DNA of 64,000 nucleotides from Azonexus sp. (GCA_030696345.1 JAUYSK010000015.1:62001-126000); one strand, 5' to 3'. Counted from the first letter of the stretch, positions 50,640-57,524 are shown. The notes: generated by a model from the sequence alone, not told the origin. Translations and numbers: made by a program.

Positions 50640-51056
50640 TCAGAAAACAAAGACTTTACGTTGCGGTTCCATAAGGCTGCGGGCCATGGCATCCGGTTTG
50701 GCCGCGACAATGCCGTCCTTGAGCATTTCCGGTGTGTTGCCGGAGTTCGGCAGATAGAGGGCACAAACCGAAGCGGTGGCGCCTTTTTTCATGGCGCCGT
50801 CGAGCAACTGGGCCGGGGTGACATCCTGCGGCTTGAGCTTTTCACCGCCGGCACCTTTCAGTGCCAGATCTCCAGCCTTGTCGCACAGCAGAATCTGAAC
50901 CTGTCCACCCTGCGCCTGGATCTGGTTGGTAAGCACCATGGCGATGCCCTGGGTCATCGTGCTGGCGGAGTTGAGGATGACTGTCACTGGCAGGGCATCG
51001 GCGTAAGCGACAGAAATGCTGGAAGCCAGGGTCAATGCAATAAGGGCTTTTTTCAT
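50640..51056 (-). CDS. Periplasmic DsrE-like protein
   Basis: A 138-residue protein with a signal peptide (MKKALIALTLASSISVAYA). The mature domain has the DsrE/F-like fold pattern (VTVILNSASTMTQGIAMVLTNQIQAQGGQVQILLC, ATASVCALYLPNSG), with cysteines that could carry sulfane sulfur. Most DsrE proteins are cytoplasmic, so export is noteworthy and fits the sulfur theme of the island. It is the last gene before a terminator. Confidence 0.78.
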   Translation of the reverse strand: MKKALIALTLASSISVAYADALPVTVILNSASTMTQGIAMVLTNQIQAQGGQVQILLCDKAGDLALKGAGGEKLKPQDVTPAQLLDGAMKKGATASVCALYLPNSGNTPEMLKDGIVAAKPDAMARSLMEPQRKVFVF

Positions 51057-51924: not shown

Positions 51925-52545
51925 TCAAGCTTTCTCGGTTTCATCGCTACCGATGATGAGGTGTGTATCGGTGAGATATTGGTGAGGCGGGACTTCAAGA
52001 TTGGTGGGGGCTGGCTTGTTCTTGAATACCCTGCCGGCAAAATCAAAGGTTGAACCATGACAGGGGCAGAGGAAGCCGCCAGGCCAATCGGCGCCGAGTA
52101 CCGGGTCGCCGGGCGTGAAAGCTTGCGAAGGCGAGCATCCAAGGTGGGTGCAGATTCCAACGGCAATCAAAATTTCAGGTTTGCGCGAGCGTGTTTCGTT
52201 GGCAGCATAGGCTGGCTGTTGTTGCCGTTCCGAAAACGGATCGACCAACATGGGTTCGGCCTTTTTCAGTGCAGTCATCATTTCAGTTGTGCGGTTCAGT
52301 ATCCAAACAGGTTTGCCGCGCCATTCGACGATCATCATGTTGCCGGGGGGCAGCTTGCCGATATCGATCTCAACCGGTGCGCCGGCTGCTTTTGCCCTTT
52401 CGGAAGGCAACAGGCTGGACACAAACGGGGTGATTGCGGTCAGTGCCAACGCGCTACCGGCACCGAGCGTGGCGATCATCCATTGTCGACGGCTTGGACT
52501 GTCACTGATGGAGAAGGAATCGCCGTGGCAGAGACATTCGCTCAT
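51925..52545 (-). CDS. Rieske [2Fe-2S] protein, PetA-like, standing alone
   Basis: A 206-residue protein from ATG 52545. A Tat-type signal (SRRQWMIATLGAGSALALTAI) acts as membrane anchor. The cluster motifs are CTHLGC and CPCHGS, with the final GPAP-like loop reading NKPAPTNLEVPP. It resembles the bc1 iron-sulfur subunit, but no cytochrome b or c1 gene follows. The N-terminus before the signal contains an extra SECLCHGD, not usual for PetA. It may serve an alternative quinol complex together with the NifX-like protein. Confidence 0.9.
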   Translation of the reverse strand: MSECLCHGDSFSISDSPSRRQWMIATLGAGSALALTAITPFVSSLLPSERAKAAGAPVEIDIGKLPPGNMMIVEWRGKPVWILNRTTEMMTALKKAEPMLVDPFSERQQQPAYAANETRSRKPEILIAVGICTHLGCSPSQAFTPGDPVLGADWPGGFLCPCHGSTFDFAGRVFKNKPAPTNLEVPPHQYLTDTHLIIGSDETEKA

Positions 52546-52880
52546 AATTTTTTCCTGAAATATGGGGGATTGGGACGACAGCAAATATTTGTATATTCGC
52601 TAATGCTTATCAATAGTCGTGCCAGCCGTGGTTTTGCCAAATTAATCGGCCAAAACAACATGTTGCAGGATTGGAATCAAAAGGCCTCCCTTTGTTTCGG
52701 GAGTGATTGACAAAATTGACGGTCAATATTGTCAATTGGCACGGTCGCTAAAGGACCGCGCTAAATTTGAGTATGCTGCGTTTGCCCAGAAAAATTAATT
52801 GATTTTCACGAGCAATTTTCGGGCAGTAGTGAGTGGCGCGGTCAACCGGATAAAAGAGCAAAATCCGGCGCTTTGACGAT
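52546..52880. other. 335-base non-coding stretch between rquA and the Rieske gene
   Basis: No ORF with coding character is seen. It is more AT-rich than its surroundings and holds several dyads: CTCCC/GGGAG (52686-52703), CGGTC/GACCG (about 52743-52759), CCGGAT/ATCCGG (about 52850-52872) and the long TTGAC/GTCAA element listed separately. A partial FNR-like TTGATAAGCATTAG lies on the minus strand near 52610. It most likely holds the promoter of the Rieske-NifX-like-DUF2141-DsrE unit. Confidence 0.55.
52707..52735. promoter_or_regulatory. 29-base dyad built of four TTGAC/GTCAA half-sites
   Basis: TTGACAAAATTGAC, one central G, then GTCAATATTGTCAA: the arms are reverse complements with one mismatch. 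Each arm contains two half-sites separated by four bases. It lies 162 bases upstream of the Rieske start and 146 bases after the rquA stop, which suggests a regulator site. The half-sites equal those of the palindrome at 25534-25547. Confidence 0.55.
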
Positions 52881-53618
52881 TCAGCGAATAATCACGATTT
52901 CCTGGTAAAGATCACCGAAGCAGGTGGATTTGACCAGGCTCTCCGGTTTGAATGAACTGGGCAGATAGCTGGCGATTTCCTTTTGCCAGAGATCGCAGGC
53001 GAACGGTTCGAGTGCTTTCAGTATGCCTTTCATCACATAGCGCAACGGATTGCTGCGTTTCGGCGAGTGGTAATCGACGATGACAATTTTTCCGCCCGGG
53101 CGAGTTACTCGTATTGCTTCGGCCAGCGTGGCGCGACGAACCGCCTCCGGTTGCTCGTGCAAGAGGAAGAAGAGCAAGGTGGAGTCGAAACTGGCGTCGG
53201 CAAAATGCAGCGCACTGGAATCCTGCCGATGCAGCCTGATTCGATCATCACTGGCAAGTTTGCGGCGAAGGTTGTCGATCTGGATTGGCGCCACATCGAC
53301 GACATCAAGTCTTCCCTGAGCTCCCAGACGGGCGGCGATACGTTGAGTGAAATCGCCGTAAACGCAGGCTACCTGAAGAACACGCTGATCAATGGTATCG
53401 CCGAGTTCAGCCAGAGCAAGATCACGCAGGCGACTGAAGTTTCCCCAGAGAATCAGGTTGACCAGCCACTCGCGCTCAAAGAGGCGGACTGCATTCGGAT
53501 GCAGGTAGGCCCACCAGTAAACTTTCTGGAGATACTCGGGAATCGCGGGGTCGATTTTGGAGTGGGGCGGGTTTGCCGGCGGGTAAAGAGCGGCGACGCT
53601 TTCAGCGCTTTGCTTCAT
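52881..53618 (-). CDS. rquA: Rhodoquinone biosynthesis methyltransferase-like protein RquA
   Basis: A 245-residue protein starting at ATG 53618. RquA converts ubiquinone to rhodoquinone by replacing a methoxy group with an amino group; rhodoquinone carries electrons at low potential under anoxia. The sequence shows the RquA-like run YLQKVYWWAYLHPNAVRLFE and EWLVNLILWGNFSRLRD. The modified SAM motif LQVACVYGDFTQRIAARL comes next, then LDVVDVAPIQIDNLRRKL and LLFFLLHEQPEAVRRATL. These are the traits that separate RquA from UbiE/UbiG methyltransferases, as I remember them. It is 79 bases from the cytochrome b gene and on the same strand. Confidence 0.87.
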   Translation of the reverse strand: MKQSAESVAALYPPANPPHSKIDPAIPEYLQKVYWWAYLHPNAVRLFEREWLVNLILWGNFSRLRDLALAELGDTIDQRVLQVACVYGDFTQRIAARLGAQGRLDVVDVAPIQIDNLRRKLASDDRIRLHRQDSSALHFADASFDSTLLFFLLHEQPEAVRRATLAEAIRVTRPGGKIVIVDYHSPKRSNPLRYVMKGILKALEPFACDLWQKEIASYLPSSFKPESLVKSTCFGDLYQEIVIIR

Positions 53619-53697
53619 CAATGGTTTTCTCTTGTTGTTCTAAATCCGGGCAGGACAAAACGGCTCGTGCCGCCCAGGGGTGTTTCAATCAGTCTGA

Positions 53698-54303
53698 CTA
53701 CTTGGTATTTTTTTCGTCGCCGTGTTCCCAGCCGGTGATCATGGCCCGAAGTTGTTCGGTGACGGTGTCGCCGGTGGTGATCAAGTACAGGTGCGAGATT
53801 AGGAAGGCTAGCATCAGGAAGGCACCGATGGTGTGCGCCAGCGCGATGGTGCCCAGATCGAGGCCATAGCCCAGCGCCGCCAGCTCGTTGTAGTACAGGT
53901 AGAGCAGGCCGGAGATCCAGATCAGCGGATTGAGCAGCACCTTGATAGCCAGATAGGTTTGCGCCTGCATAGGGTTGTGCTTGCGGGCGCGGGTGATTTT
54001 GAATGGATGCGGTTCCCCTTGGAAGATGCCCCAGGCGTAGTGACGGATGATCTTGTCTACGCCCTGCATGGTCGGGATGTACTGCCGCCACTCGCCGGTG
54101 GTGAAGTGCCAGAAAATGGCGAACACCCAGAGGATGATCAGCGCCCAGGCGGCGACGGTGTGCACCTGATGTGCCAGCGTGAAGCCGAGCAGGCGGTAGC
54201 TGCCGTGGATTTCGAAACCGGTCACCAGCATGCCGATGACCAGCAGCGCCTGCATCCAGTGCCAGAAGCGTTCGAAGCGGGAGAAAATGTAGATGCGTTC
54301 CAT
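53698..54303 (-). CDS. Membrane cytochrome b, thiosulfate reductase/formate dehydrogenase type
   Basis: A 201-residue di-haem-type cytochrome b (PF01292-like) with four main helices. Haem-ligand candidates are the histidines in FERFWHWMQALL, HQVHTVAAW, AIFWHFTTGEW and AHTIGAFLMLAFLISHLYL. Such proteins link the quinol pool to periplasmic reductases. The gene lies 12 bases after the octahaem cytochrome gene, so it is the probable quinol dehydrogenase for it. Confidence 0.9.
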   Translation of the reverse strand: MERIYIFSRFERFWHWMQALLVIGMLVTGFEIHGSYRLLGFTLAHQVHTVAAWALIILWVFAIFWHFTTGEWRQYIPTMQGVDKIIRHYAWGIFQGEPHPFKITRARKHNPMQAQTYLAIKVLLNPLIWISGLLYLYYNELAALGYGLDLGTIALAHTIGAFLMLAFLISHLYLITTGDTVTEQLRAMITGWEHGDEKNTK

Positions 54304-54315
54304 GATGGTTTCCGA

Positions 54316-55905
54316 TTATTGCTTGCGACGCAGGAAGCGAATCAGGCCGTGTAACGACACACCGCAGAGGACACCGCCGGCGGCCAGCCAGCCCAGCGTA
54401 TTGACCAGCGGGTTGCCGTCGCGGCCCGGGATGTAGATGCCCTTGACCTGATCGAGGCGGCCGCCCTTGGCATGGCAGGATTCGCAATCCAGCGCCTTTT
54501 CCTTGGGGGCAACCATGTGTGTGATCGGCCAGTACATTTCCGTCTTCACGAAATCAACCTTGCCGGAGAAAGGTGCGTTGGCGGCCTTCATGCCGGTCTC
54601 AATGGCCTTTTCCCAGTTGAAGTTCTTCCAGTAGGCGGTATCGTCGTTGCCGGCGAGGTGCGGTTTGACCAGCGTCTTGTTTTCCGGGTCGTAGGGCTGG
54701 CTGCCGCGCATGACCTTCATCGGCCAGATCAGTGAGCGGCCATCGCTGGCGTTGCCGCCGAGCGCGTTGATCAGCGTCACGCCGTTGGCCTTGTCGACCG
54801 TGTCGCCGAGCAGGGTGTAGGTGACTTCACCATTGAACCAGGCGTATTCCGGCTTGACGTTCTCGGCGACAACGAAATCGCCCTTGCGTGAGTCATAGAC
54901 GATATGGCCCTTGTCATCCTTTTTCAGGATGGGCTTGCCTTCCGGGCTCAGCTTGCCGGCGGTCGACCAGTCCCAATGCATCTTGGTCGGCACGCCGCCG
55001 CGGGCGAATTCCGGGATATGGCAGGTCTGGCAGGCGACCTTGTCGCTGTGGTGATTCAACTTGGCTGCATGCGAACCGGCCTTGTGCGGTGACTGGCCGT
55101 GGCAGGACTGGCAGGTAGCCGGATTCGATTTGCTCTGCTGGCCGCGCATGTGTGCATCGCCGGTATCCTTGCCGGTGGCTGCGTAGCGGCTGCCGACAAC
55201 TTCATGTGCCGGCGCCTTGTGGCAAGTGGCACAGCTGAAGTCGAGGCCGGTGGCATCCATGTGTACGTCGACTTCCTTGTCTGGCGCGGCCAGTGAGGAG
55301 TCCATGTCGCCATGCTTCACACCGTCGCCGCCGCCGCCGAAGAAGTGGCAGGCACCACAAGTGTCGCGGCTGGTTTTGCCAACTTTTTGCGCGACTTTGG
55401 TGAGGTCAATTGCCTTGACGAACTTGCCCGATCCCGGCGGGTTTTCAGTGTCCTTGATCGGCGGCTGGCCGCCGCCAGGCATCTTCTTATAGGTGCCGGT
55501 ACTATCGTGACAGACGAGACAATCGACGTTTTCCTGCGAGCTAAAATCAAAACTGGAATTTACCCAGCCGTAACCAACGTGACAGGTAGCGCAGGCGCCG
55601 AGATTGCTCGCGGTAGAGGTGCAGTAGTTGTTGATGACGTTCTTTTTGCCCAGGCGCTGCTGGTTCACCGGATTGATGACTTCCCAGGTCCAGTGTTTGG
55701 TGCGATGAACCTGCATCGCGGCCTCGGTATGGCAACCGAGGCAGGCCTTGGTTACCTCCGGACCTGAGTTGAATTGACGTTGCAACTCCTTGAACTTGCC
55801 ATGGTCTGCGGTCGTGTTCAGCTTGACTGCAGGGGATGCACCGCTAAATCCGGGCAAGACAAGGACAATGGCGGCCAGCACCGCAAAAAATCTTGATTTC
55901 AGCAT
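54316..55905 (-). CDS. Octahaem c-type cytochrome, tetrathionate reductase (OTR) family
   Basis: A 529-residue protein with a signal peptide (RFFAVLAAIVLVLPGFSGA). It has eight CXXCH haem sites (CLGCH, CATCH, CLVCH, CGACH, CATCH, CQSCH, CQTCH, CESCH). NNYCTSTASNLGACATCHVGYGW and NVDCLVCHDSTGTYKKMPGGG match the Shewanella OTR family. A C-terminal helix (LGWLAAGGVLCGVSLHGLIRFLRR) anchors it to the membrane, which the Shewanella soluble form lacks. OTR reduces tetrathionate, nitrite and hydroxylamine in vitro; the physiological substrate is unsettled. The rhodanese next door favours a sulfur compound. Confidence 0.92.
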   Translation of the reverse strand: MLKSRFFAVLAAIVLVLPGFSGASPAVKLNTTADHGKFKELQRQFNSGPEVTKACLGCHTEAAMQVHRTKHWTWEVINPVNQQRLGKKNVINNYCTSTASNLGACATCHVGYGWVNSSFDFSSQENVDCLVCHDSTGTYKKMPGGGQPPIKDTENPPGSGKFVKAIDLTKVAQKVGKTSRDTCGACHFFGGGGDGVKHGDMDSSLAAPDKEVDVHMDATGLDFSCATCHKAPAHEVVGSRYAATGKDTGDAHMRGQQSKSNPATCQSCHGQSPHKAGSHAAKLNHHSDKVACQTCHIPEFARGGVPTKMHWDWSTAGKLSPEGKPILKKDDKGHIVYDSRKGDFVVAENVKPEYAWFNGEVTYTLLGDTVDKANGVTLINALGGNASDGRSLIWPMKVMRGSQPYDPENKTLVKPHLAGNDDTAYWKNFNWEKAIETGMKAANAPFSGKVDFVKTEMYWPITHMVAPKEKALDCESCHAKGGRLDQVKGIYIPGRDGNPLVNTLGWLAAGGVLCGVSLHGLIRFLRRKQ

Positions 55906-55917
55906 GGCAAGCTCCGC

Positions 55918-57066
55918 TTATTTCTTCTCGACGATGGTGTAATTGCCGTCCTTCGTCCACTTGATGTCGGCGTCCATGAAGAAAGTCTTCAGTGCCGGCT
56001 TGTATAGCTTCACCATGTCGACCGCCTCGCCGCTGCGCCCGCCGGCGCCGCAGACGAAGACGATGGGCTTGTCGGTCGGGAGCTCGTCGATACGCTTCTC
56101 AAGCGCATTGATCGGAATGTTGCGGGCCCCCTTGAAGGTGCCGGTCTCGACTTCCTTGGCATCGCGGACATCGATGATGTAGATGCTGTCCGGTGATTCC
56201 TTGTATATCTTCTCAAAGGAGGCGGTGGTTATCGTGCCGCTTTCCTTGCCTTGCTGGATGGCCGGTGCGGCTGCCGCAGGGGCGGCGCTGCCGACAGTCG
56301 GGCCGGGACCATAGAGCTTGGCCCACAGCGGGTAGCCTTCAGGAACGACCATGACTTTCTTGTAGCCGAGTTTGACAGCCTTTTCGGCCGAATCCGAACT
56401 GAGCTTGCAGCTCAGGCCTTCGCAGTAAAAGTACAGGGGTGTGGCCTTGTCGGCCGGCAGGCGTTCGGCGGCAAGCTTTTCGAACTGGGAATCGGGCAGA
56501 TTGATCGCGCCGGGGATATGGCCCTTGTCGAACTTGCGCTCCTTTGGGCGCGAGTCGATCAGAAGCAGCGGTGATTTTTCATCGAGCAGCTTCTTGATGT
56601 AGGGCACGCTGACGGCGCCGATATGCCCCTTCTGGATCCACTCCGGATAGCCTTCGGCATAGACGCGAATATTGTTGTAGCCAAGTTTTTCGGCCTTGAA
56701 GGCGGAGTTGTGGCTGAGCATGCACTCATGACCTTCGCAGTAGAAAATCAGCAGCGTGTTTTTGTCTGCCGGCAACTGGTCTACCAGCTTCTCGAACTGG
56801 GTATCCGGGATGTTGATCGAAGTCGGGATGTGGCCCGGATCGAACTTGCGTCCGGTCGGGCGAGAATCGATGAGTTGCACGCCGTCCGGCTTGGGCAGGA
56901 TGGCGTAGCGGGCGACAAAGGCGTTATCGACGAGCTTGGTGTACCAGCCTTCTTTCACCTGGACGGTTGCTGCATCGGCAGCAAGTGCGACGGAGACATT
57001 GGGCAACGGGGCGACAAACAGCGCGGCCAAAAGGCTCGCGACAGCGATCATGCGTACGGATTTCAT
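55918..57066 (-). CDS. Exported protein with three rhodanese domains
   Basis: A 382-residue protein with a signal peptide (MIAVASLLAALFVAPLPNVSVALA). Three rhodanese-like domains lie at about residues 45-150, 155-250 and 275-375. Their active-site loops read YCEGHECMLSHNSA, YCEGLSCKLSSDSA and VCGAGGRSGEAV, so all three keep the first cysteine. The first two are close duplicates; the third is the canonical loop. It could move sulfane sulfur in the periplasm to or from the octahaem cytochrome, whose gene lies 12 bases downstream. Confidence 0.9.
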   Translation of the reverse strand: MKSVRMIAVASLLAALFVAPLPNVSVALAADAATVQVKEGWYTKLVDNAFVARYAILPKPDGVQLIDSRPTGRKFDPGHIPTSINIPDTQFEKLVDQLPADKNTLLIFYCEGHECMLSHNSAFKAEKLGYNNIRVYAEGYPEWIQKGHIGAVSVPYIKKLLDEKSPLLLIDSRPKERKFDKGHIPGAINLPDSQFEKLAAERLPADKATPLYFYCEGLSCKLSSDSAEKAVKLGYKKVMVVPEGYPLWAKLYGPGPTVGSAAPAAAAPAIQQGKESGTITTASFEKIYKESPDSIYIIDVRDAKEVETGTFKGARNIPINALEKRIDELPTDKPIVFVCGAGGRSGEAVDMVKLYKPALKTFFMDADIKWTKDGNYTIVEKK

Positions 57067-57131
57067 GGTGAGCTCCTGAATTCAGCGCGGGTTACGGTTA
57101 ACCCGGAACAATGAAGAAAAGTCGGGTCGGG

Positions 57132-57524
57132 TCAGCTGCAGCTGGCCGGCGAATCGCCATCCTTCGCGCCCTTGATGACGAAGGCCTTGATGTCTTCGAA
57201 CAGTTCGTCTTCAGGAACGTCGGCGAATTTCTCGGCCGCCTTGTTCTGTGATTTGATACTGGCTCGGTAGGCCTTGCTGACGTACTGCTTCATTGAGTCC
57301 TTGCCCTTGGCGTGCTTGTCTGCCTGCAGGTAAGTGCCCCACTGGCTTTTGCTCATCGTGCTTGGGGCGATCGACCCACCCGCCTGGGCGGCGTGGCAGG
57401 CCGTACAAACGCTACGGTAATAGACGCGACCGCGTTTCCAGTCGGCATCGTAGGCACTGGCCAGTGTCGAAACACACAAAAGACCCGTGGTAATTACTGT
57501 GGCAAAGATGTGACTTTTTTCCAT
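57132..57524 (-). CDS. Class I cytochrome c (monohaem)
   Basis: A 130-residue periplasmic cytochrome with a signal peptide (IFATVITTGLLCVSTLASA). One haem site, VCTACHAAQAGG, lies at about residues 40-44, and a Met for distal ligation may be in TMSKSQW. It leads the cytochrome c-rhodanese-OTR-cytochrome b series, 65 bases before the rhodanese gene. It probably shuttles electrons for the octahaem protein. Confidence 0.88.
   Translation of the reverse strand: MEKSHIFATVITTGLLCVSTLASAYDADWKRGRVYYRSVCTACHAAQAGGSIAPSTMSKSQWGTYLQADKHAKGKDSMKQYVSKAYRASIKSQNKAAEKFADVPEDELFEDIKAFVIKGAKDGDSPASCS

Follow-up and report, generated by a model that had tools for sequence, protein, structure and literature searches.

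A membrane-anchored octahaem cytochrome of the OTR family encoded with sulfur-transfer genes in Azonexus sp.

The stretch of DNA analysed here (hereafter the window) comprises 64,000 nt from Azonexus sp. (GCA_030696345.1, JAUYSK010000015.1:62001-126000), a Dechloromonas-like bacterium. On its minus strand we found four genes arranged head to tail, which encode a small monohaem cytochrome c (130 aa; 57132..57524), a triple-rhodanese sulfurtransferase (382 aa; 55918..57066), an octahaem cytochrome of the octahaem tetrathionate reductase (OTR) family (529 aa; 54316..55905) and a cytochrome b561-type quinone-reactive subunit (201 aa; 53698..54303). The genes are separated, in this order, by gaps of 65, 12 and 12 bp. 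A GGAG-like sequence lies upstream of each of the first three genes, the products of which all start with a signal-like N-terminus, and CGGAAA lies upstream of the cytochrome b gene. The positions, the order and the short gaps agree with the preliminary description of this locus, which had proposed an operon of these four genes. The interval given there, however, omits a gene for a DsrE-fold protein (51056-50640), which is probably part of the same system.

Sequence comparison placed the octahaem protein clearly in the OTR family, as had been proposed: it scored 625.1 bits against TIGR04315 (curated cut-off, 375), covering model positions 1-440 of 440, and the Shewanella enzyme (1SP3; E = 8.8e-114) was its sole strong relative in the PDB. 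The conservation, anchor and neighbour counts below are based on 120 distinct family members that we collected. Eight CXXCH haem motifs are present in the window protein, and exactly eight were found in 112 of the 120 homologues. Lys197 corresponds to Lys153 of the Shewanella protein, the unusual ligand of haem 2 reported with the 2004 structure, and Lys is kept at this position in 120/120 members. Cys95, located ten residues ahead of the haem-2 CXXCH, corresponds to Shewanella Cys64, and this column holds either Cys or UGA in 119 of the 120 members (UGA being counted as Cys). Haem II is stated to be the catalytic haem (PMC4484225).

The octahaem protein also bears a C-terminal hydrophobic segment (residues 504-522), the predicted membrane anchor. 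Its AlphaFold model was poor overall (mean pLDDT 63) and was rejected as a basis for active-site geometry, albeit the C-terminal helix at residues 499-527 was predicted well. The gene 12 bp behind matched Ni_hydr_CYTB (PF01292) with E = 2.8e-21 and 76.5 bits (cut-off, 30.1), and the haem-ligand histidines of its product (His 15, 48, 157 and 171) are kept in 84-85 of 85 homologues. The preliminary description had singled out the anchor and the dedicated cytochrome b as features unlike the Shewanella form. Both features are present, and the contrast with the Shewanella OTR, which is soluble (PMC6449678), is real. Nevertheless, it does not make this locus special: the hydrophobic segment was detectable in 105/120 members and cytochrome b adjoins OTR in 107/120, and we therefore regard the two as general to the family and the soluble OTR of Shewanella as the outlier.

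What distinguishes the locus is the sulfur-transfer set common to its OTR clade. The rhodanese matched PF00581 in three stretches (E = 9.3e-46; 154.9 bits against a cut-off of 22.2), and Cys 110, 215 and 339 sit in the active-site loops, which read CEGHEC, CEGLSC and CGAGGRS. An identification as the TsoB rhodanese/DsbD selenoprotein (NF045694) was rejected, the match being partial and its 117.7 bits far under the 805-bit cut-off. The cytochrome c carries a single CXXCH at residue 40 and scored slightly below the Pfam cut-off against Cytochrome_CBB3 (E = 1.5e-5). Among 151 genomes of the host's bacterial family, rhodanese homologues appeared in 22 and cytochrome c homologues in 20, and every one of these genomes also possesses OTR (22/22, expected 6.1; 20/20, expected 5.6). 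At the genus level, the rhodanese occurred together with OTR in 16/16 genera (p = 5e-8; Fisher test, not corrected for shared ancestry). In the OTR tree, a FastTree reconstruction with local support values only, the window protein falls into a clade of 34 members (support 91). Within 8 kb of OTR, this clade has the cytochrome c in 30/34, the rhodanese in 23/34 and a Sulf_transp (YeeE/YedE-type) transporter in 21/34 cases, against 2/86, 7/86 and 5/86, respectively, outside it, a contrast that is descriptive because the clade was chosen after the labels were seen. The sulfur link suggested in the preliminary description is supported. The locus is a genuine form of an already known family, linked to sulfur and met with repeatedly.

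A second OTR gene, likewise accompanied by a cytochrome b gene, is located on a different contig of the host genome (L001/L174; L174 = G000:C2:19000-36000). This copy belongs to a different clade in the same tree and is flanked by sigma-54-dependent regulators, with no rhodanese, cytochrome c or transporter gene nearby. In other loci (L054:11855-13672, L173, L178, L198), we noticed a DUF3373 porin-like gene behind OTR plus cytochrome b, or behind the rhodanese. OTR-family genes were also found on five large plasmid records, four from Paracoccus and one from Photobacterium (NZ_CP038196.1, CP038202.1, NZ_CP035287.1, NZ_CP038206.1 and NZ_CP119424.1).

In seven OTR genes of a single clade, detected among 80 OTR loci, an in-frame TGA occupies precisely the column of Cys64, and the frame is open on either side (L073:6417-6419, L080:2923-2925, L084:850-852, L096:471-473, L099:821-823, L101:8190-8192 and L104:2973-2975). 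An identical SECIS-like hairpin, CUGGUGC-AGGU-GCACCAG, lies 17 nt past the TGA in 7/7, with GGU in its apical loop, as bacterial SECIS elements typically have. All seven genomes gave a tRNA-Sec match over the family cut-off, one of them marginal (48 vs 47 bits), and full SelB was found in five of the seven. The OTR of these relatives thus very probably carries selenocysteine (Sec) in place of the near-invariant cysteine; the window protein has Cys, not UGA, at this position. Such Cys/Sec exchange is usual at nucleophilic catalytic residues, and therefore favours nucleophilic thiolate chemistry on sulfur-sulfur bonds over nitrite reduction. The Sec form is already known as an annotation: a 2026 review counts the OTR family among the GenBank-annotated selenoproteins, with the motif not stated (PMC13188914), and we found no paper discussing the Sec position in the literature searched. 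A small gene, ArsR-type-looking by eye, stands directly ahead of four Sec-type OTR genes (L084:212-544, L099:183-518, L101:7531-7866 and L080:2208-2594).

The DsrE-fold protein (138 aa; 50640..51056, minus strand) has a signal-like N-terminus. It gave no Pfam match, and matches of its DsrE-like profile to designed repeat proteins in the PDB were judged spurious. A structural model built from five sequences (pLDDT 78.6) retrieved 3pnx DsrE (E = 1.7e-6) and 1jx7 YchN (E = 2.3e-6), as well as 2hy5, in a Foldseek search, so that the protein appears to be DsrE/DsrF-like by fold only. Two cysteines, Cys58 and Cys98, are invariant across the seven sequences aligned. In the window the gene lies 2.6 kb downstream of cytochrome b, after rquA, a Rieske gene and a DUF2141 gene. 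Homologues stand directly behind the rhodanese in three loci (L176, L183 and L039) and beside OTR in Marinobacter, and other members of the OTR clade likewise have a DsrE-fold protein that starts with a signal-like segment; the window protein is a probable further partner of the OTR system.

The gene for the rhodoquinone biosynthesis methyltransferase, rquA (52881..53621, minus strand; NF038261, 305 bits against a cut-off of 175), starts 76 bp behind cytochrome b. It, too, lies outside the interval of the preliminary description, and we do not count it as part of the unit. It occurs in 43 of the 151 family genomes, only six of which also hold OTR as against 12 expected, i.e., the two are not associated and, if anything, depleted together; rquA is therefore probably an incidental neighbour. 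No rquA was found beside the operon in the related loci examined. The Rieske protein gene (51925-52584) has no adjacent cytochrome b/c1 genes, and Rieske genes occur near OTR in loci L046, L199 and L210 as well. As for regulation, the sigma-54 promoter pattern TGGCAC-N5-TTGC (up to two mismatches) occurred in the window at a frequency not exceeding that in shuffled sequences, with no match in the 200 bp ahead of the operon, and a scan for promoters and terminators yielded nothing above chance.

Gene order, family membership, the anchor, the haem motifs, the conserved Cys and Lys, the exchange of Cys for UGA in relatives and the co-occurrence with sulfur-transfer genes are all read from sequence. 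We assign a probability of roughly one half to the locus encoding a quinone-linked, membrane-anchored enzyme for the periplasmic cleavage of sulfur-sulfur bonds. The best reading of its function would be that it reduces tetrathionate, polysulfide or persulfide with electrons from quinol, the rhodanese and the DsrE-fold protein handling sulfane sulfur. We infer the substrate, the direction and the contacts between the partners as follows. The dihaem cytochrome b would oxidise quinol, and the electrons would run from it along the haems of the octahaem protein as far as haem 2. There, much as TsdA forms an S-thiosulfonate intermediate, the Cys95 thiolate may attack a sulfane sulfur, whether that of tetrathionate, of polysulfide or of a persulfide on a protein, and the reduced product would then leave OTR. 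The triple rhodanese and the DsrE-fold protein would take up or hand over sulfane sulfur, which in relatives a YeeE/YedE-type transporter may carry into the cytoplasm, and the small cytochrome c could act as an additional electron shuttle. OTR-type enzymes do reduce tetrathionate in vitro (PMC4484225; PMC6449678), and the enrichment of soxB and dsrB in the rhodanese-bearing genomes, the soxB of the host and the triple-rhodanese protein encoded in a polysulfide reductase operon (PMC12142623) likewise speak for this reading. A bolder proposal is that this OTR clade provides the catalytic core of a periplasmic machinery for sulfane sulfur that is separate from Sox, Psr and TsdA. In it, the rhodanese and DsrE-fold proteins would give persulfide sulfur to the Cys (Sec in relatives) by the octahaem site, directly linking protein-bound sulfane sulfur to the quinone pool as well as, in relatives, to YeeE/YedE-type sulfur import. 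We hold this to be speculative and rather unlikely as a whole.

Several observations weigh against quinol-linked reduction of sulfur compounds. The Fisher tests of co-occurrence, the genus-level count included, are not fully corrected for shared ancestry. In paired contrasts on the OTR tree, the rhodanese and the cytochrome c pointed in the same direction yet fell short of significance, and the paired association of the rhodanese with YeeE across the same tree was not significant either. The YeeE-type transporter is not in the window locus; Sulf_transp genes exist elsewhere in the host genome, one of them, a partial match, approximately 2.5 kb from soxB. Furthermore, since the hosts are for the most part organisms that oxidise sulfur, the reaction may run oxidatively in the living cell. 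The same machine would in that case oxidise thiosulfate, polysulfide or a protein persulfide and pass the electrons to cytochrome c and/or quinone, while the rhodanese, the DsrE-fold protein and the transporter feed sulfane sulfur to Sox or reverse Dsr. Hosts of the clade include the named sulfur oxidisers Sulfurisoma, Sulfurimicrobium and Thiobacillus, soxB (18/22) and dsrB (15/22) are enriched in the rhodanese-bearing genomes, and the extra class I-like cytochrome c could serve as the electron acceptor; the host genome itself contains soxB and no dsrB above the cut-off. Nevertheless, the membrane partner conserved throughout the family is a cytochrome b of the quinone type, the characterised OTR-family enzymes were assayed as reductases, and quinone reduction by thiosulfate would be uphill given +198 mV for the thiosulfate/tetrathionate couple, a value stated in PMC9562282. 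An oxidative role seems the less probable direction, albeit one to be taken seriously.

Activity in vitro extends to nitrogen compounds too, as the Shewanella OTR reduces both nitrite and hydroxylamine (PMC4484225), which likewise weighs against a sulfur substrate. The enzyme could accordingly serve ammonification or detoxification, its sulfur neighbours then being there by chance or as a defence against sulfur stress. A relative from Beggiatoaceae reduces nitrite as well, but is more active on tetrathionate (PMC6449678). The lack of any match to the pentahaem nitrite reductase NrfA (TIGR03152) in the host genome as a whole speaks for such a role; this model is also absent from the NCBIfam matches of OTR. 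Reduction of nitrite, however, leaves unexplained the sulfur-transfer partners that recur in many lineages, and gives no obvious role to the near-invariant Cys or probable Sec, and we regard a nitrite or hydroxylamine reductase as improbable. A selenite or tellurite reductase aided by the rhodaneses appears more doubtful still: a Geobacter ext cluster with cytochromes is linked to both reductions (PMC5877670), and OTR is present in Sedimenticola selenatireducens (L106), but the Sulf_transp transporter, the DsrE fold and the co-occurrence with Sox/Dsr account for the locus without it.

Whether octahaem tetrathionate reductases act in vivo on tetrathionate, on nitrite or on something else has yet to be settled. 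Sulfur chemistry is indicated both by the conserved set of sulfur-transfer partners that accompanies one OTR clade and by the probable Sec that takes the place of a near-invariant cysteine in another, and with Cys95 named as the residue to mutate the question of the substrate becomes directly testable.

Among characterised proteins, the window OTR resembles that of Shewanella oneidensis (1SP3; TIGR04315) most closely in homology over the full length, in its eight CXXCH motifs and in keeping Cys64 and Lys153; what sets it apart from this soluble enzyme is the anchor at the C-terminus and a dedicated cytochrome b. Other anchored OTR and cytochrome b pairs belong to the same family and have both of these features as well; among them is the second copy of the host, which differs in its clade and its neighbours. 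TsdA, a thiosulfate dehydrogenase/tetrathionate reductase, is alike in working only, as a cysteine at its active haem forms an S-thiosulfonate intermediate (PMC4423706); it has two haems, belongs to the SoxA family and uses Cys as a haem ligand, and we claim no relation between it and OTR. Another likeness in working is seen in the Psr operon of Desulfurivibrio dismutans, where a secreted three-rhodanese sulfurtransferase, for which the authors proposed a role in sulfur delivery, likewise stands beside a quinone-linked sulfur reductase (PMC12142623). The catalytic subunit is a molybdoenzyme in that system and an octahaem cytochrome in the window.

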